Of a DNA stretch of 64,000 nucleotides, positions 3,902 to 10,947 are shown piece after piece. The stretch covers positions 558,001-622,000 of the forward strand of contig JAIUOF010000002.1 in NCBI GenBank assembly GCA_020161355.1, read 5' to 3'. This DNA comes from Bacteroidota bacterium (lineage in GTDB: Bacteria > Bacteroidota > Bacteroidia > Cytophagales > Spirosomataceae). Made by a program: the position numbers and the translations under genes. The notes beneath the pieces were generated by a model. The model was given only the letters and a program-made list of their open reading frames with translations, searched no databases and had not been told where the DNA came from. Each line of letters begins with the position of its first letter. The stretch's first letter is position 1.

Positions 3902-5656
3902 ATGAAAAAATTATTGCTTTCCGCTCTTGTCGGACTTGCCATGTTTTCCTGTAAGCCTTCAGAAAACAAAGAACTCAACAAATTATTCGAAGATTATTAC
4001 GAAGAAAGATTGTCGTATTTCCCTTTAGAAGCCACTTCTCAGGGCGACTATCGCTTTAATGACCAGCTGCCCATCGACATCTCAGAAGAATATCGGAGAA
4101 ACCTGCTGAATTTCTATCAAACCTATAATGACAGACTTGATAAATTTGATCAAAACGAACTCACAGAGGACGAAAAAATATATTACAATGCCCTGAAGTT
4201 CAACCTCACTACTGAAGCCGAGGCACTCAACTATCCTACTCATTTACAGCCTTTTAATCAGTTTATAGGTTTGCCACTTACCATCGCTCAATATGGCAGC
4301 GGGGAGTCGGCTCAGCCATTTAAAACAGCTCAGGACTACGACAATTGGCTCAAAAGATTTGACAAATTTGTGGTTTGGGCCGATACCGCCATCGCCAATT
4401 TTGACAAAGGCATAAAAGCCGAAAATGTATTGCCTGCGGCATTGGTCAAAAAAATGATTCCTCAGATGCGGGAGCTGGCCACAGGCGAGCCCACAGCACA
4501 TTTATTTTATGGTCCGGTGAAAAAAATCCCTGCCGGTTTGGATGCTGTACAAAAAGCTGCCATCACCGCCAAATACACCACGGCCATCGAAACCAAAGTA
4601 AAGCCTACCTATAAAAAACTTGCCGATTACCTGCAAAACACCTATTTGCCCAAAGCCCGGGGCTCAAGCGGTATATTATCCATAAAAAATGGTATCAATC
4701 ACTATAAATTCCTGACTTACTACTGGACCACAAGTCTGAAGTCAACCGACGAAATCATGCAGATTGGACTCTCTGAGGTCAATCGTATCAGGAAAGAAAT
4801 GGAAAAAATACGGGTGCAGGTAGGCTTCAAAGGCGACTTGAATGCATTTCTGGCTTCGGTAAGAAACGACCCGAAACTGATGCCTTACAAGACTCCTGAA
4901 GAGGTGTTGGCGGCTTTCAAAAATATACAGACCAAAATGGAGCCCAACCTCAAAAAGATGTTTAACCTCACGCCAAAGACTAAGTTTGAGATTCGTCGCA
5001 CCGAGGCATTCAGAGAGGCTTCGGCCAGTGCAGAATATATCCAGGGTACTGCTGACGGTAGCCGCCCGGGCATTTTTTATGTTCCGATACCTGACGCCAC
5101 CAAGTTTAACGTGACCTCCGGCATGGAGTCATTGTTTTTGCATGAGGCCATTCCGGGGCATCACTACCAGGTATCATTGCAGCAGGAAAACCTCAATATC
5201 CCGAAATTCCTGCGGTTTGGCTGGTATGGGGCCTATGGCGAAGGCTGGGCTCTGTATTGCGAGTCGTTGGGTAAAGACCTCGGGCTATATACCGACCCTT
5301 ATCAATATCTCGGTGCATTGGGTGACGAAATACACCGGGCCATCAGATTGGTAGTAGATACCGGCATGCACACCAAAGGCTGGACACGCGAGCAGGCATT
5401 GCAATACATGCTCGAAAACGAGGCCATCTCGGTAGAAGGTGCCACTGCCGAAATAGAACGCTACATGGCTTATCCCGGACAGGCACTTTCTTATAAGATT
5501 GGAGCAATGAAAATCAGGGAGTTGAGAGGAAAATACATGACCGAAATGGGTGATAAGTTTAGTCTGGCGGCCTTTCATGACGAAGTGCTGAAACATGGCT
5601 GCCTGCCACTGAGCATACTGGAAGAAAAACTGGACGCATGGGCTAAAATAAAATAA
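3902..5656 (+). CDS. DUF885 family lipoprotein, predicted metallopeptidase-like
   Basis: A 584-residue exported protein. The N-terminus is a lipoprotein signal with the lipobox ending at Cys17 (LAMFSC), so it should be anchored in the outer membrane. It matches the DUF885 family throughout; the diagnostic HEAIPGHHYQ motif begins at His414 and resembles the zinc-binding HExxxxH of metallopeptidases, with an acidic stretch GEGWALYCE about 30 residues later. Family function is unsettled; peptidase activity is an inference from the motif. A GNAT gene starts 2 bp after its stop, so the two are translationally linked. Confidence 0.88.
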   Translation: MKKLLLSALVGLAMFSCKPSENKELNKLFEDYYEERLSYFPLEATSQGDYRFNDQLPIDISEEYRRNLLNFYQTYNDRLDKFDQNELTEDEKIYYNALKFNLTTEAEALNYPTHLQPFNQFIGLPLTIAQYGSGESAQPFKTAQDYDNWLKRFDKFVVWADTAIANFDKGIKAENVLPAALVKKMIPQMRELATGEPTAHLFYGPVKKIPAGLDAVQKAAITAKYTTAIETKVKPTYKKLADYLQNTYLPKARGSSGILSIKNGINHYKFLTYYWTTSLKSTDEIMQIGLSEVNRIRKEMEKIRVQVGFKGDLNAFLASVRNDPKLMPYKTPEEVLAAFKNIQTKMEPNLKKMFNLTPKTKFEIRRTEAFREASASAEYIQGTADGSRPGIFYVPIPDATKFNVTSGMESLFLHEAIPGHHYQVSLQQENLNIPKFLRFGWYGAYGEGWALYCESLGKDLGLYTDPYQYLGALGDEIHRAIRLVVDTGMHTKGWTREQALQYMLENEAISVEGATAEIERYMAYPGQALSYKIGAMKIRELRGKYMTEMGDKFSLAAFHDEVLKHGCLPLSILEEKLDAWAKIK

Positions 5657-5658
5657 CG

Positions 5659-6099
5659 ATGACCATTAGAAGAGCTCAACACGAAGACCTGCCGGCAGTA
5701 AAGCTGCTGGTTGACGAGCTGGAAGAGACTGTACTCAACGAGGTGGATTTTGAGCGGGTTTTTAAGAAAAATCTCCTGCTTGAAACCCACCATTATTTTT
5801 TGGTTTGGGACGAAAACACGCCCCTGGCCCTGCTCAGCATGGTTTTCTCTGACCACCTGCACCACGCCAAAACCATTTGTGAGATACAGGAACTGGTGGT
5901 AACTGCCGCCTACCGCAATCAAAAAATCGGTGAAAAACTGATAGAATTTGCCAAAAACTACTGCAAGAAAAAAGAAGTAGATCAGATAGAGCTGAGCTCC
6001 AACTTCAAACGCACCCGTGCCCACGAGTTTTATATGCGTCAAGGGTTTACCCGCGGACATTACAAGTTTGTGTGGAAATTGCCCTCCAGCACAAGCTAA
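5659..6099 (+). CDS. GNAT family N-acetyltransferase
   Basis: A 146-residue single-domain GNAT protein. The acetyl-CoA binding segment is EIQELVVTAAYRNQKIGEKL (motif A with the usual RxxGxG replaced by RNQKIG), and the C-terminal part AHEFYMRQGFTRGHYKFVW is the conserved motif B. It should transfer an acetyl group to an amine, substrate unknown. It begins 2 bp after the DUF885 gene, an operon-like spacing. Confidence 0.85.
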   Translation: MTIRRAQHEDLPAVKLLVDELEETVLNEVDFERVFKKNLLLETHHYFLVWDENTPLALLSMVFSDHLHHAKTICEIQELVVTAAYRNQKIGEKLIEFAKNYCKKKEVDQIELSSNFKRTRAHEFYMRQGFTRGHYKFVWKLPSSTS

Positions 6100-6253
6100 G
6101 TATTTGATATTCAAAAAATAATTTCTATTTTCACATGATAAAAGACCACACGGTCTATAAAATTGGAATGAAAAACCGACAACAGATGCTCACAAATGTA
6201 TATATCTTTGATAATAAACTATTTAAACGAAAAAAAACATACAACTAAAATAG

Positions 6254-6277
6254 GTATATACACAATTGTGTAAATAC
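6254..6277. repeat. 24-bp near-perfect palindrome next to cassette boundary
   Basis: GTATATACACAATTGTGTAAATAC is palindromic except for one A/A position each side of the core. It lies 3 bp before the first cassette boundary (6281) and upstream of the 6321 gene, so it could be an operator, a hairpin, or the remnant left end of the cassette block. Confidence 0.5.
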
Positions 6278-6280
6278 TAA

Positions 6281-6291
6281 TGTTAGCGGCA
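6281..6291. repeat. Left boundary of cassette 1 (attC-like half site)
   Basis: TGTTAGCGGCA is the exact reverse complement of TGCCGCTAACA at 6989-6999, which closes the same unit. In integron cassettes the 5' end (TTRRRY side) complements the cassette's own 3' R'' box in just this way. GTTAGCG departs from the canonical GTTRRRY at the last two positions. Confidence 0.5.
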
Positions 6292-6320
6292 AAGTTGCAA
6301 GTCACTTCTAAATATGTAAA

Positions 6321-7010
6321 ATGATGGAATTAGTAAGGCTTTTATTAGATATTATTATCATCTTGATTGGATTGTATATAGTACTTTTTAAAAGCTATTT
6401 TTCCGAAAAAGGAAAGAATTTAGCAACAAAGGAAGATATTTCAGATATAACTAGTAAGATTGAGACAATTAAGAATCTTAGTTCAAAAGAACAAGATTGG
6501 TTTATTGAAAGTAAGTTATCTCTTATAAATTATTATGATAGTTACATTCTATGGACAGAGTATTCAATTAAAAGAATAGATATAGTAATTAATAATTCTT
6601 TTTTCCCTGATAAAATTCGAAGAACAATTGACGATTTGAATATTCAACATTCTAAGGTAATTAGTTGCATATGGCGTTTGACATTATATGAATCTGATGA
6701 AAAGTTTATTAATAACATAAAAGAAGCTTATTTAATGGCTGCAAAATTACATAGTTTGACCATGGACTTTTTGATAGATATAGAAACGATTTCTCTTAAA
6801 CTTGAGAAATTAGAAAGCTTATTGAAAGATGGTAATTCTATAAAAACATCGGCAGATAAATTAATTGAGGAGAAAAGTAGTATTATTGATACTTTCGTTG
6901 GAAAGAGAGATAAATTAGAAACTAATGTAATTGAGTTGACAAACAAACAGATGAATTTGATACGAGTTAAAATAAAACAAAAATACCCTGCCGCTAACAA
7001 CGACTCATAA
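6321..7010 (+). CDS. Small coiled-coil membrane protein of unknown function
   Basis: A 229-residue protein I do not recognise. An N-terminal transmembrane helix (about 5-24) is followed by a long, mainly helical cytoplasmic region; residues about 150-215 (ETISLKLEKLESLLKDG and following) look coiled coil. The gene is AT-rich compared with its neighbours, stands alone between complementary boundary repeats at 6281 and 6989, and its stop codon lies inside the downstream hairpin, as is usual for cassette genes. Start chosen at the first of two ATG codons (6321, 6324). Confidence 0.75.
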   Translation: MMELVRLLLDIIIILIGLYIVLFKSYFSEKGKNLATKEDISDITSKIETIKNLSSKEQDWFIESKLSLINYYDSYILWTEYSIKRIDIVINNSFFPDKIRRTIDDLNIQHSKVISCIWRLTLYESDEKFINNIKEAYLMAAKLHSLTMDFLIDIETISLKLEKLESLLKDGNSIKTSADKLIEEKSSIIDTFVGKRDKLETNVIELTNKQMNLIRVKIKQKYPAANNDS

Positions 7011-7126
7011 GCAATGGCGGGGTTTGTATCGTATTTAACGCCTGGTCTCGTAGCGTAGGTCTGTAACGTGGGGTACAAACACAACTCCGAATCCCGCCAC
7101 TGCCCATAGCCGCGACCGTTGTGCGT
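6989..7126. repeat. attC-like imperfect hairpin 1
   Basis: A region of about 138 bp folds into a long interrupted hairpin. The stem GCAATGGCGGG (7011-7021) pairs with CCCGCCACTGC (7093-7103), and GTTTGTA (7022-7028) pairs with TACAAAC (7074-7080), with unpaired bases on one side. The outer ends are GCTAAC (left) and GTTGTGCGT (7118-7126, right), which do not match each other but each match the far end of their own gene unit. That is the logic of an integron attC between two cassettes. No integrase is in the window. Confidence 0.55.
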
Positions 7127-7149
7127 ATTCAAAAAAAACACTATGACAC

Positions 7150-7524
7150 ATGAAAAAAATAGTTCTGATTATAATGTATTTTACCTCGACTCTAGTTGCT
7201 TGTTCACAGACAGAAAGGTCGAAATTAGGTTTTGAATACGCAAAACAAGAATTGGAAAGTGCGATAAATAATTCATCTGAAAAACAGATACTTGTTGATA
7301 AGGTTATAAAGACTCAAAAAACTGCAATTAAGTACGCTGAGACTGTTCTATTTGAAATTTATGGTCAAAAGAATATTGAGAAACAAAAACCTTATGAGCT
7401 ATATAAAATAGATGAATATTGGATAATTGGAGGAAGATTACCTAAAGAAATAACTGGGGGAACTTTTCTGATTATTATAAATTCCAGGAATGGCCAGATA
7501 ATTAAATTGACACACGGAAAGTAA
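7150..7524 (+). CDS. NTF2-fold immunity-like lipoprotein
   Basis: A 124-residue protein with a lipoprotein signal (lipobox around VACS, Cys at residue 18). Residues about 60-124 carry the pattern AETVLFEIYG, EKQKPYELYKIDEYWIIGG, LPKEITGGTFLI, NGQIIKLTHGK, which I associate with the NTF2-fold immunity protein (YbbC/YhhH-like) family that protects against polymorphic toxins. No toxin gene is adjacent. It begins about 24 bp after the right end of hairpin 1 and its stop overlaps the next start by one base (TAATG). Confidence 0.72.
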   Translation: MKKIVLIIMYFTSTLVACSQTERSKLGFEYAKQELESAINNSSEKQILVDKVIKTQKTAIKYAETVLFEIYGQKNIEKQKPYELYKIDEYWIIGGRLPKEITGGTFLIIINSRNGQIIKLTHGK

Positions 7525-7952
7525 TGAAAAAATTATTTATTCTGCCTGTTTTTCTTATTGCTTTTCAGTCTTGTTCGCAATCAATTGACATAAATGATTT
7601 GAAAATTAATAATTCAGATTTAAAAATAACTTATTGGACAAAAAGTTCATTTGGTTTAAATAGTACTTCAACAAAATTGCTTTCCAAAGACTCTAAAGAA
7701 TTTAAAAATTTTAATGACTGGTTGATTGACAATTCGAAAGGATGGGAAAAATCTATAGCCTCTTATGCTACCCCAAATATTTTCATTACAAGTGCTGATT
7801 TTAGATTGTTAATTTTTAAAAACTTTGTAATCATAGGATATTCCGATAAAAATAATAAACCAATGCAATTGATAAAACATACTAACATTAAAGAATTTGA
7901 ATTTCTTAATGAAAAAAATGAAAGAACGCACAACAAACAAAAAAGCCAATAA
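7524..7952 (+). CDS. Hypothetical lipoprotein
   Basis: A 142-residue protein with a lipoprotein signal (FLIAFQSC, Cys16) and no family I recognise. The body alternates strands and polar segments (KNFVIIGYSDKNNKPMQLI). It is translationally coupled to the immunity-like gene upstream by a one-base overlap, suggesting a two-gene cassette. Its last codons (NERTHNKQKSQ) run through the closing boundary repeat at 7926-7934, so the natural C-terminus is set by the cassette junction. Confidence 0.65.
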   Translation: MKKLFILPVFLIAFQSCSQSIDINDLKINNSDLKITYWTKSSFGLNSTSTKLLSKDSKEFKNFNDWLIDNSKGWEKSIASYATPNIFITSADFRLLIFKNFVIIGYSDKNNKPMQLIKHTNIKEFEFLNEKNERTHNKQKSQ

Positions 7953-8047
7953 GGGTTTCAGTAGTATGCAAAGGGTTTTAACCTGCTCCAACTTTTTGTG
8001 TAACTCGATAGGAAATCGCCCGCAAACCTGCTCGACCGTTGTGCAAC
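7926..8047. repeat. attC-like hairpin 2
   Basis: ACGCACAAC (7926-7934) is the exact reverse complement of GTTGTGCGT at the start of the same gene unit (7118-7126). The right end GACCGTTGTGC (8034-8044) is identical to the right end of hairpin 1 (7114-7124). Inside, GGTTT (7954-7958) can pair with AAACC (8024-8028). The internal stem is weaker than in hairpin 1. Confidence 0.5.
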
Positions 8048-8075
8048 TCCAAAAAGAACAACAATGTAGATAAGA

Positions 8076-8333
8076 ATGAAACAACCAAAAAAAATTATAT
8101 TCTATACTCTAATCGGGCTATCAGTTTTTGGGATTTTCATATTTGCTTTTGGAATTATCAACATAATGGTAAGTTTGAAATATGAAACTGACAATTCATC
8201 TGACTGTCTTTCAGTAGTTACGGGACAAGATTTGTGTTTCACAATTCAAGTATTAAAAGGCTTAATTATTGCTTGTTTTGCAACTATTGTTATTCTTTTT
8301 GTTTTTAGAAAGCGTTTTTTTAATGAAATCTAA
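8076..8333 (+). CDS. Small two-helix membrane protein
   Basis: An 85-residue protein with two predicted transmembrane helices (about 9-30 and 62-79) and a short loop with two Cys residues (DCLSVVTGQDLC). I do not recognise it. It is the third unit of the cassette-like block, starting about 30 bp after hairpin 2, with the same low-GC character. No clear closing boundary repeat follows, although GTTGCAC near 8413 partly matches what would be expected. Confidence 0.6.
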   Translation: MKQPKKIIFYTLIGLSVFGIFIFAFGIINIMVSLKYETDNSSDCLSVVTGQDLCFTIQVLKGLIIACFATIVILFVFRKRFFNEI

Positions 8334-8459
8334 TTCCAGCTGTGCGAATGCTCCAGCCTTTATTAATGTGCATGCTGGCCATTCACAGGAGAATAGAAGT
8401 GCAAATACTACTGTTGCACCTATCCTAAAAAAGAAATACATTTACAAAAAACTAAAAAA

Positions 8460-8885
8460 ATGGCCCTTATTAACCCTCATATCAATTTCAATGGCAATGC
8501 CGAAGAAGCCTTCAATTTTTACAAGTCGGTGTTTGGTGGTGAGTTCGCCAAAATCACCCGCTTCAAAGACATCGCCAGCGAAGATTTCCCGGTGCCGGCA
8601 CACGAAGCCGAGAAAATCATGCACATTGCCTTATCTATCGGTCCTAACTTTTTAATGGGCAATGACGTGCCCGAAATCATGGGTAAAACCAATGAAAATG
8701 AGAACCGCAGCAAAATCTCGATAAGTACAGATAGCAAAGAAGAGGCCGAAAGGCTATACTACGGACTATCGGCAGGTGGTCAAATCGAAATACCTTTGGA
8801 AGAAAGCCCCTGGGGTTCTTCATTCGCGATGTTCCGTGACAAATATGGCATCGAATGGATGGTGGAATTTGAGCCGGGGAAATAG
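8460..8885 (+). CDS. VOC superfamily (PhnB-like glyoxalase fold) protein
   Basis: A 141-residue PhnB-like protein: NPHINFNGNAEEAFNFYKSV at the start and DKYGIEWMVEFE at the end are the hallmark strands of this family, which is often misannotated as a 3-demethylubiquinone methyltransferase. Metal-binding and substrate details cannot be read from sequence; the function is probably binding or conversion of a small molecule. It marks the return to ordinary base composition after the cassette block. Confidence 0.85.
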   Translation: MALINPHINFNGNAEEAFNFYKSVFGGEFAKITRFKDIASEDFPVPAHEAEKIMHIALSIGPNFLMGNDVPEIMGKTNENENRSKISISTDSKEEAERLYYGLSAGGQIEIPLEESPWGSSFAMFRDKYGIEWMVEFEPGK

Positions 8886-8915
8886 CAGGAACAAAAATTT
8901 TCCACTCCCATTACT

Positions 8916-8923
8916 TATCTTTG
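8916..8923 (+). promoter_or_regulatory. -7 box TATCTTTG
   Basis: TATCTTTG fits the Bacteroidota TAnnTTTG -7 element and lies 20 bp before the ATG at 8944. No TTTG is seen at the expected -33 position, so only half of the promoter is recognisable. Confidence 0.45.
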
Positions 8924-8943
8924 CCCAAAACCTAAACTAATTG

Positions 8944-10290
8944 ATGGAAAACACTCCTCACGAAAAAAGTAATTGGATACAAGAGCTGTCAAATCAAAGC
9001 TGGAACCTCGAACTGGTGGTTTCGGGAGCCGCCATATTTTCAACTTCCTTCCTGCCCGAGCTGGCCGACAAAGCCATCAGCAGTTATTATCTTAACTACC
9101 AGATTAGCAGGGAGCTTTCGAGTGAGGTTTTTCCGACACTGGCATATAGTTTTGGTAAATCTTCCGCCTATTTATTGATTTTTACGTTTATTATCCACTT
9201 TATTTTTCGGGCGTTTTGGATCGCCTTGGTAGGTCTGAGGGCGGTGTTCCCTCAGGGCATTAACTTTGACAATATCCCGAACACCACCAAAGATATGGCC
9301 GAAATGTACAAGCAAAAGTTCGGTACATTGGATGCCTACATAGTAAAACTCGACAAACTTTGCAGTCAGATTTTCTCCATTGCATTTGTGCTGGTGCTGT
9401 TTAGTATCATGATGGCAATACTGTATTTAGTTGGTTTTGTGGCAACGGTTGGTTTCAAAACTTACCTTCCTGTGGTGTACGAAAAAACGAAAATAATATT
9501 TTTGGTACTTCTTGGCCTAATATGGACCTTTTCCATGGTCATAATGGCGATAGGTTCAAAAGAAAAATACCGTAGTAAACCAATGCTGGGGAGACTATAC
9601 AAAGCCACGATTGAAAAAAGTACGTTCTTATACATGGGCATGTACAAGCCCATGCAATACATCAATTTTACTTTTGGGTCAAATATGCCCCATAAAAAGT
9701 ATTTTAGGACGGTTTTGATTATCGGGTTTACATTTTTTACCGTGGCAATCGGAATTTACAGCTTCAAATTGCTTGAGCATGTGGGTGTTCCGATCATGGA
9801 ATCCCGAAATTACTTCTCTTCAGGGTCTGCAAAGCATAAACTCGAAATCAATTTTTATGATAATCTCAGAACGGAAAAAGACGAAATACCTGCCGCGAGC
9901 ATACAATCAGATGTGATTGAAGAACCATTTCTGAAACTTTTTATCAATTATTCCAAAGTTTTGGATGAGGATTTGGTTAAAATATACGAGGAACCTAAAA
10001 TGGCCGACAGCCTCAGAAACTCACAGAAAAGACCCCTGCGGGATGCGGCCAGATTGGCTTGTCTCGAAACCTATTTCCAAATATCCCTTAATGATTCCAC
10101 TCTCAATTCTCCTGATTCTTTATTTGAAACCAATGCCCTCAGCAAAGGAATTAAAGCCTATCTGAGCACCGAAAACTGTAAAACCGGTAAAAATACCCTT
10201 TATATAAAAACCTTAAAAACAGACAGTTTACCCAAAAAAGTCTATGACGAGTATGTGATTATTCCGTTTTGGTATAGTAAGGGGAGATAG
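8944..10290 (+). CDS. Multi-pass membrane protein of unknown function
   Basis: A 448-residue protein with about four transmembrane segments in the first 280 residues (AYLLIFTFIIHFIFRAFWIA, FSIAFVLVLFSIMMAILYL, IIFLVLLGLIWTFSMVIMA, FRTVLIIGFTFFTVAIGIY) and a soluble C-terminal domain (about 290-449) that probably faces the periplasm. I do not recognise a family. The ATG at 8944 is preferred over the adjacent TTG at 8941 because of the -7 box just upstream. Neighbours give no functional hint. Confidence 0.75.
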   Translation: MENTPHEKSNWIQELSNQSWNLELVVSGAAIFSTSFLPELADKAISSYYLNYQISRELSSEVFPTLAYSFGKSSAYLLIFTFIIHFIFRAFWIALVGLRAVFPQGINFDNIPNTTKDMAEMYKQKFGTLDAYIVKLDKLCSQIFSIAFVLVLFSIMMAILYLVGFVATVGFKTYLPVVYEKTKIIFLVLLGLIWTFSMVIMAIGSKEKYRSKPMLGRLYKATIEKSTFLYMGMYKPMQYINFTFGSNMPHKKYFRTVLIIGFTFFTVAIGIYSFKLLEHVGVPIMESRNYFSSGSAKHKLEINFYDNLRTEKDEIPAASIQSDVIEEPFLKLFINYSKVLDEDLVKIYEEPKMADSLRNSQKRPLRDAARLACLETYFQISLNDSTLNSPDSLFETNALSKGIKAYLSTENCKTGKNTLYIKTLKTDSLPKKVYDEYVIIPFWYSKGR

Positions 10291-10399: not shown

Positions 10400-10651
10400 A
10401 TGGCAAAAAATACTTCAATACTATTAGGAGATTATTTTGATAATTTTATTTCGCAACAAATAAAAACAGGGAAGTATTCTTCGGCCAGTGAAGTGGTCAG
10501 AACTGCTCTTAGATTTTTTGAAGATGAAGAAAATAAAAAGGCCAATCTTATTTCTGAACTTAAAAAAGGGGAAGATTCGGGTTTTTCTGAGGATTTTGAT
10601 CGCGAAAAATTTCTAAAAAAGATTCATACAAAATTCAAAACTGACCAATGA
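10400..10651 (+). CDS. parD: Antitoxin, ParD/CopG ribbon-helix-helix family
   Basis: An 83-residue protein with the ParD layout: a ribbon-helix-helix DNA-binding N-terminus (SILLGDYFDNFISQQIKTGK, then SASEVVRTALRFFEDEE) and an acidic C-terminal tail that should wrap the toxin. Its stop codon overlaps the ParE start in ATGA, the usual type II arrangement. It should repress its own promoter through the palindrome at 10365-10381. Confidence 0.9.
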   Translation: MAKNTSILLGDYFDNFISQQIKTGKYSSASEVVRTALRFFEDEENKKANLISELKKGEDSGFSEDFDREKFLKKIHTKFKTDQ

Positions 10652-10947
10652 ATTTTAAAATAAGTAAAGCAGCCGAAAATGACCTTGAAGACATTTGGCA
10701 ATATACTTTTTTTAATTGGTCAGCCGATCAGGCAGATTATTATTTCAACCTTATTTTGGATGAAATTGAATATTTAAGTAATTATCCGTTTTCAGGTCAG
10801 GAATTTGGGTTTGTTAAAGAGGGTTATTTTCGCTCAAAAGTTAAATCACACTTCATATTTTATAGAATTAATGACTTTGAAAATGTAATCGAAATTATCA
10901 GAATCCTTCATCAGAAAATGGACTTTAAGGGTAAGTTAGATGACTAA
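10648..10947 (+). CDS. parE: Toxin, ParE/RelE superfamily
   Basis: A 99-residue ParE-like toxin: KISKAAENDLEDIWQYTF at the N-terminus, the central LSNYPFSGQEFG, and the C-terminal IIRILHQKMDF characteristic of ParE, members of which poison DNA gyrase. It overlaps parD by 4 bp. It looks intact, with no frameshift. A 12-bp perfect palindrome (AGTTTGCAAACT) lies at 10959-10970 just downstream. Confidence 0.9.
   Translation: MNFKISKAAENDLEDIWQYTFFNWSADQADYYFNLILDEIEYLSNYPFSGQEFGFVKEGYFRSKVKSHFIFYRINDFENVIEIIRILHQKMDFKGKLDD

Follow-up and report, generated by a model that had tools for sequence, protein, structure and literature searches.

A small integrase-less cassette cluster in a Bacteroidota genome and an integron-like system probably moved by a patch-less tyrosine recombinase

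Introduction

The Bacteroidota are considered to be almost devoid of integrons, and work with IntegronFinder recorded for the Bacteroidetes no more than In0 elements and, in Salinibacter, a single complete integron (PMC9024848). In Riemerella anatipestifer, aph(3')-IVb, lnu(H) and blaRATA are reported to integrate independently of homology; aph(3')-IVb did so as a unit with 27 bp of DNA on its 5' side and 140 bp of attC-like DNA on its 3' side (2026, PMC13148043), by a mechanism that the authors describe as not yet fully elucidated. Pairs of xerD and tet(X) are known from Acinetobacter and Empedobacter, where the resistance gene is adjacent to that of a Xer enzyme, and a role of the enzyme in tet(X) movement has been posed as a question (PMC7473080). 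A search of the literature found no description of the whole system presented below; subscription journals and preprints lay mostly outside its coverage, and priority is thus not established.

Here, a stretch of 64,000 nucleotides from a Bacteroidota genome (the window) was analysed, in which a previous sequence-only reading had picked out two small gene units with integron-like logic and no integrase nearby.

Results

Inverted strings in the window

The sequence-only reading had noted that each unit begins with the exact reverse complement of its own end, and that the two intervening hairpins finish alike. All of the strings that it quoted were recovered where it had placed them: TGTTAGCGGCA at 6281 is the reverse complement of TGCCGCTAACA at 6989 (11 of 11 bases), GTTGTGCGT at 7118 is that of ACGCACAAC at 7926 (9 of 9), and GACCGTTGTGC stands at both 7114 and 8034, which a whole-genome search returned as its only two copies in the 4.81-Mb host genome. 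The genes are, as had also been stated, AT-rich and all in one orientation. Inverted strings alone are weak evidence, since exact inverted pairs 400-1500 nt apart are frequent in the 64-kb window (75 of 11 nt and 779 of 9 nt) and since neither hairpin is more stable on folding than its shuffled versions are (z between -0.2 and 0.2). The question therefore became one of membership of a site family, and structure is argued from covariation only, because the folding of single sequences cannot tell these hairpins from shuffles. A search of 5600-9000 with Rfam gave no match.

A structured site family in the Bacteroidota

A similarity search with site 1 of the window among 222 genomes of the host family gave two true relatives at E<0.01, built on the same plan, and a scan of viral contigs added about 20 sites. 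Matches from a pattern search were mostly false and were removed by eye. A covariance model, R1, was then built from 14 aligned sites. These sites share a plan that runs from an R'' terminating in AAC through a short spacer to an arm near GNNTATAAGNAATGGCGG, then to a loop of ~75 nt, the matching arm CCGCCACTNCTCATANNC, a spacer and GTT. In the R1 alignment 13 of 22 pairs change on both sides, and the covariation score of the 14 sites was reached by none of 500 shuffles; the value for 150 sites from 80 loci was 0.40 against 0.095 when shuffled, above all 500 shuffles, although this larger set leans towards structure because an arm pattern was used to retrieve its loci and its alignment was fitted to the model.

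Sites matching R1 were present in 102 of the 222 host-family genomes and in 177 of 394 genomes sampled across the phylum, representing more than 30 families; the host genome has 13, most of them far from its array recombinase gene. Flavobacteriaceae, Saprospiraceae, Cyclobacteriaceae, Marinifilum, Balneolaceae and Melioribacteraceae are among the matches listed, as are a few MAGs labelled as phyla other than Bacteroidota. These counts cover the host family and the phylum, the comparison beyond them consisting of one class 1 integron plasmid and one Shewanella phage integron, in both of which R1 found nothing. The suggestion that the window hairpins are a divergent Bacteroidota form of attC is borne out by the covariance model, which places them in a Bacteroidota-wide attC-like family. 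The sequence-only reading was also right that the classical consensus is not matched exactly: among 202 sites AAC is present in 193 and GTT in 179, and the full boxes are rare (RYYYAAC in 14/193, GTTRRRY in 8/179).

Strong sites were also seen in MAGs labelled WOR-3, Patescibacteria, Spirochaetes, Parcubacteria and Desulfobulbaceae (L125, L139, L145, L172 and L186), through either transfer or bin contamination. A tight subfamily with near-identical sites (CTATAAGTAATGGCGGG...CCGCCACTACTCATAGCGG) occurs in IMG/VR contigs (L045, L048, L051, L074, L078 and others), some of which carry a divergently oriented recombinase; these contigs are either phages or misbinned cassette arrays.

Cassette logic and strand asymmetry

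For 93 pairs of neighbouring sites, the bases following GTT were compared with the reverse complement of those preceding AAC in the following site, so that each of the 93 cassettes was tested start against end. Start and end agree in 80-86% of cases at +1 to +6, 56% at +7, 2% at +8 and 68-80% at +9 to +11, with shuffled ends giving 25-49% at +1 to +6; the number of matches over the first nine positions is 6.34, compared with 3.09 (sd 0.14) after shuffling of the ends. When the two halves of a single array site are compared with each other, their agreement does not exceed the shuffled level. An A is found at start position +8 in 94% of sites, opposite C, which on the bottom strand is G.T, and two inner stem positions likewise set A opposite C in 134/150 and 146/150 sites, again G.T on the bottom strand; the consensus inner stem has no single-sided bulge. 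With the arms joined, the bottom strand is the more stable in 146 of 150 sites (P 5e-25), and the same holds for 96 of 136 whole sites. Neighbouring sites are co-oriented in all 103 pairs, at a median spacing of 1347 bp. Hairpins scattered through the genome without linked small genes, which the sequence-only reading had named as evidence that would count against cassettes, are not what was found: the sites form same-strand arrays with a gene between sites.

The cluster in the window

All features of the cluster lie on the forward strand. Directly 5' of the first cassette is a putative attI-like or secondary insertion sequence, AATAGGTATATACACAATTGTGTAAATACTAAT (6249..6281), so that the left border at 6281 reads ...AAATACTAAT immediately before GTT, the last bases being ATACTAAT. 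Comparable TATA-arm sequences stand 5' of the first cassette in other clusters of the host genome, ending in ...CTATACTAAT (L111) and ...ATATGCTAAT (L279), each directly before GTT. Cassette 1 (6282..7117), with predicted crossovers at GTT 6282 and GTT 7118, shows the full family hallmark of seven matches after GTT followed by A opposite C at +8, its start being GTTAGCGGCA-A and the reverse complement of its own end reading GTTAGCGGCA-G (7/7 after GTT). It contains an ORF of 229 aa (6321..7010) with an N-terminal TM segment and a coiled coil, for which a Pfam search gave nothing above cut-off; the 3' end of this ORF falls within attC-like site 1 (6987..7127). The circular form of site 1 has folding energies of -29.2 kcal/mol for the bottom strand and -25.6 kcal/mol for the top.

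Cassette 2 (7118..8037) starts with GTTGTGCGT, the reverse complement of its own end at 7926-7934, and matches that end at 6 of 7 positions after GTT. It encodes a 124-aa protein of the Imm-NTF2-2 family (NTF2-fold immunity protein; 7150..7524; Pfam PF15631, E 8e-23) and a 142-aa lipoprotein-like protein (7524..7952) with no family assigned, and ends in attC-like site 2 (7923..8048). A third cassette start, GTTGTGCAAC (8038..8333), precedes an 85-aa membrane-protein ORF (8076-8333); R1 finds no end site for this unit, which is probably truncated. In the covariance-model check that had been proposed for these sites, site 1, which is one of the 14 training sites of R1, scored 90 bits (E 7e-20), and site 2, which is outside the training set, scored 32.1 bits (E 1e-5) and is a weak, divergent member of the family. 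The match to the family raises the observation in the window above chance. As to the array of two units that had been described, cassette 1 carries the full hallmark, whereas site 2 is weak and the unit at 8038 is without an end site.

The array is flanked, outside its borders, by genes for a GNAT acetyltransferase on the left (5659..6099; PF00583) and a VOC/glyoxalase-family protein on the right (8460..8885; PF00903, PF06983), both also on the forward strand. An empty site was sought via both of these genes in relatives within the genus, none of which keeps the locus, and 6281 is accordingly a putative point of insertion. The VOC gene has a 78% ortholog in one relative (G150), with a different left neighbour, and relatives of the GNAT gene are only 35-44% homologs. 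The same survey bears on the other observation that would have counted against cassettes, a fixed gene order in distant relatives, in that no genus relative retains the locus. Models of defence families gave no match to the cassette genes of the window or of contig C11. The single plasmid match of array DNA was a short stretch in AT-rich coding sequence and was rejected. Just downstream, at 10400-10947 of the window, two adjoining small ORFs resemble a ParD/ParE-type toxin-antitoxin pair.

The contig that holds the window (C7) has no TIGR02249 or integrase-like match. A cluster of at least two sites with no integrase nearby, as a CALIN is defined, is what the window contains, for the present site family and not for classical attC. 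The description of the cluster as CALIN-like and far from its integrase agrees with the genome: there is none on C7, and one heads an array on contig C11.

An array-linked recombinase and attI-like sequence

The top integron-integrase match in the host genome lies on contig C11, 3 kb before a strong site. At this locus (L110) a gene encoding a tyrosine recombinase of 266 residues (6915-7718) is followed by an attI-like sequence and five co-oriented sites. The gene has a single in-frame TGA, at codon 79, in place of the arginine of the RPKK-like motif of its relatives, representing either recent inactivation or an assembly error; copies in relatives at L115, L119 and L121 are also frameshifted. 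Homologs of the recombinase, mostly 40-60% identical, were found 5' of the first site, co-oriented or divergent, in 20 of 20 loci examined, drawn from the host family, Saprospiraceae, Flavobacteriaceae, other MAGs and viral contigs, and 11 further recombinase-array pairs have the same polarity (G074, G167, G011, G170, G118, G098, G108, two in G130, G149 and G132:C300). In 17 of 19 loci tested, 42-920 bp separate the recombinase from the start of the first cassette, and that start agrees with the cassette's own end at 6-7 of 7 bases; the sequence preceding the first cassette commonly has inverted TATA-containing arms, e.g. TATATACGC...GCGTATATA. An attI-like sequence is thus located by the recombinase, together with cassettes in one orientation, as in an integron, its role as a recombination site being putative. 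Some site-bearing genomes may be without a linked recombinase. Elsewhere on C11, at ~134 kb, a dispersed cluster of two cassettes (L113) is preceded by GCGTCTATTTATGA directly before GTT, which is identical to the attI-like end of the C11 integron-like locus, like a second attI.

The catalytic residues R, K, H, R, H/W and Y are conserved in the aligned array-linked recombinases. TIGR02249 matches these enzymes in two stretches, with positions ~180-238 (about 58) absent from every array-linked one examined, and an alignment with IntI1 shows that it is the IntI-specific insertion that the array recombinases are without. The intact enzymes score 170-233 bits with TIGR02249, and none of the 222 host-family genomes has a match above its cut-off. 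The host genome has no recombinase with the classical integron patch, a search for which had been proposed; the likely cognate enzyme there is one without the patch.

The closest solved sequence is VchIntIA (2a3v), then XerA, and an AlphaFold model (pLDDT 85) resembles XerA (Z 23.6) and VchIntIA (Z 21.6). In a maximum-likelihood tree, which took in two IntI and few Xer sequences and left several forks without resolution, the Bacteroidota enzymes (91/93) stand beside IntI (99/98), and XerD together with two Xer-like enzymes of the host genome (100/99) stands apart from them. A divergent enzyme of the host genome (C11:584 kb) also falls within the Bacteroidota group; tyrosine recombinases elsewhere in that genome are only 24-30% identical to the array recombinase. 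Long N-terminal extensions with HARP-like (ssDNA-annealing) repeats were observed at L118 (2224-3897), L120 (1730-3337) and L181 (6084-7691); the likeness to HARP comes from a predicted beta-beta-alpha-beta-beta fold and from a single weak match to Pfam (1e-4, below cut-off).

Resistance genes as cassettes

The xerD beside tet(X3) on Acinetobacter plasmids encodes a protein with 74.6% identity to the L118 enzyme, and the attI-like site at which tet(X3) begins belongs to a recombinase of this family (L275, NZ_CP104735.1, 2967-4988). When the Acinetobacter tet(X3) junction is compared with tet(X) of Empedobacter, Myroides and Riemerella plasmids, similarity starts exactly at GTT. The structured site of tet(X3) itself is incomplete and given no score by R1; the argument for mobility rests on tet(X2). 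A tet(X2)/tet(X) unit of the form GTTATGTGCC-A-TTTT ... AAAA-C-GGCACATAAC, followed by its site, is present in four plasmids, of Empedobacter brevis, E. falsenii, Myroides odoratimimus and Bacteroides fragilis, the Bacteroides unit differing by one base at its start; the loci with the complete tet(X2) cassette are L285, L287, L288 and L290. To the left of the first GTT the DNA is closely alike in Empedobacter and Myroides, is other DNA in Bacteroides and differs again at the Acinetobacter attI-like site, and to the right of the last GTT it is different in all of the plasmids. The left border of tet(X2) recurs in tet(X3)/tet(X5), where it lies at the recombinase's attI-like site, and in a Riemerella plasmid the 3' end of tet(X) and its site have a further, different right neighbour. 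Fixed unit borders with changing neighbours in plasmids are, as read from these sequences, the trace left by cassette movement, and this indicates that tet(X), a mobile tigecycline-resistance gene, travels as a cassette of the integron-like system.

A 939-bp lnu(H) unit was found in two plasmids, with an end match of 11/11 (L285 8010-8948, L287 8928-9866). Other genes of Weeksellaceae resistance plasmids, ere(D) and its neighbours (L286 13895-15349 and 15531-16257), likewise have cassette ends matching at 10-11 of 11 positions.

Discussion

The window very probably holds a small integrase-less cassette cluster of a Bacteroidota integron-like system that is moved by a patch-less tyrosine recombinase. 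The evidence is by sequence, and consists of a site family with covariation, the complementarity of cassette ends, same-strand arrays, a linked recombinase with an attI-like position and exact cassette borders; the recombination reaction, the position of the cut, the single-stranded substrate and the identity of the enzyme are inferred from it. In the proposed mechanism, one cassette would comprise one or two genes and an attC-like site. The patch-less tyrosine recombinase, encoded at the head of a master array (in the host on C11, where it is broken by a TGA), would bind the folded bottom strand and cut at GTT, and the cassette would move as a circle into the attI-like sequence beside the recombinase gene or, alternatively, into look-alike sequences elsewhere, as at 6281. 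The choice of strand would come from three conserved positions, each A.C in the top strand and a G.T wobble in the bottom strand.

It is scarcely credible that chance repetition, or the presence of terminators between ordinary genes, accounts for the inverted sequences and the hairpins: inverted 9- to 11-mers are indeed frequent in the window and the hairpins fold like shuffles, but there is an independent match to a structured family that spans the phylum and shows covariation as well as pairing specific to each cassette. An ordinary IntI integron or CALIN lying just under the thresholds would share the AAC/GTT core, the one-way arrays, the adjoining recombinase with its attI-like site and, for intact recombinases, the 170-233 bits obtained with TIGR02249. 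It is nonetheless a very improbable explanation, given that the IntI insertion is absent from every array-linked recombinase examined and 0/222 genomes exceed the TIGR02249 cut-off, that GTTRRRY is present in only 8/179 sites and that R1 is silent on the class 1 integron plasmid and the Shewanella phage integron.

An unlikely, though less remote, reading is that the units are true cassettes moved by other means, either housekeeping XerC/XerD or natural transformation with hairpin annealing, with the recombinase a frequent passenger. Natural transformation gave homology-independent integration of such a unit in Riemerella, with no recombinase named (PMC13148043), and most sites of the host genome are far from a recombinase gene that is itself broken. 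Against this reading, linked recombinases are 5' of the array in 20/20 loci with the first cassette just beyond, the tyrosine recombinases elsewhere in the host genome have only 24-30% identity, and the Xer-like ones among them hold a separate position in the tree.

The system works, as far as can be judged, like an integron, and a variant of the integron kind is the most fitting class for it; it is not an integron under the classical definition, since the array recombinases examined are without the IntI patch and few of the sites have the GTTRRRY box. A broader proposal is somewhat favoured, namely that this is a second integron lineage, sister to IntI and without the patch, which would be the main cassette-exchange system of the Bacteroidota, would use G.T wobbles to tell strands apart, in some members with a HARP-like domain for ssDNA handling, and would be the route that made tet(X) and several other resistance genes mobile. 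On this evidence, an integron-like system is present in ~45% of the sampled genomes of the phylum, and escapes search tools because both site and enzyme differ from the classical ones.

Among known systems, phage CALINs (PMC9892861) share clusters of attC-like sites without an integrase, and the present family also occurs in IMG/VR contigs, some with a recombinase; the attCs of phage CALINs were found with IntegronFinder/HattCI, i.e. with models of classical attC (PMC9892861). The Xer site-bounded modules of Acinetobacter share the flanking of resistance genes by sites for tyrosine recombinases, and use XerC/XerD and Xer sites (PMC7399989). Compared with such pdif-type modules, the present borders are structured sites of ~130 bp, and the linked recombinases appear not to be XerC/XerD and lie outside the Xer group of the tree. 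With regard to the xerD-tet(X) pairs, the xerD on the tet(X3) side belongs to the present recombinase family, which offers a testable answer to the printed question of whether xerD next to tet(X) moves tet(X) (PMC7473080). The Riemerella integration shares a unit made up of a gene, a short 5' flank and a 140-bp attC-like 3' hairpin, and lnu(H) is a cassette here also; neither a recombinase nor a family spanning the phylum is named in that paper (PMC13148043), and the present system is a candidate for the mechanism by which resistance genes were taken up there without homology.

With classical integrons the system has in common one-way arrays of small genes, cassette starts that pair with their own ends, the AAC/GTT core, a bottom strand that folds better, and a tyrosine recombinase with an attI-like site at the head of the array. 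Conversely, the present recombinase is without the IntI-specific insertion and sometimes has a HARP-like N-terminal extension, and the present sites miss RYYYAAC/GTTRRRY and pair over 10-14 bp with a fixed A.C mismatch. Where classical attC has extrahelical bases, the consensus of the present sites has G.T wobbles. The system also provides a natural point of reference for the question of how folded single-stranded DNA became the substrate of integron integrases.
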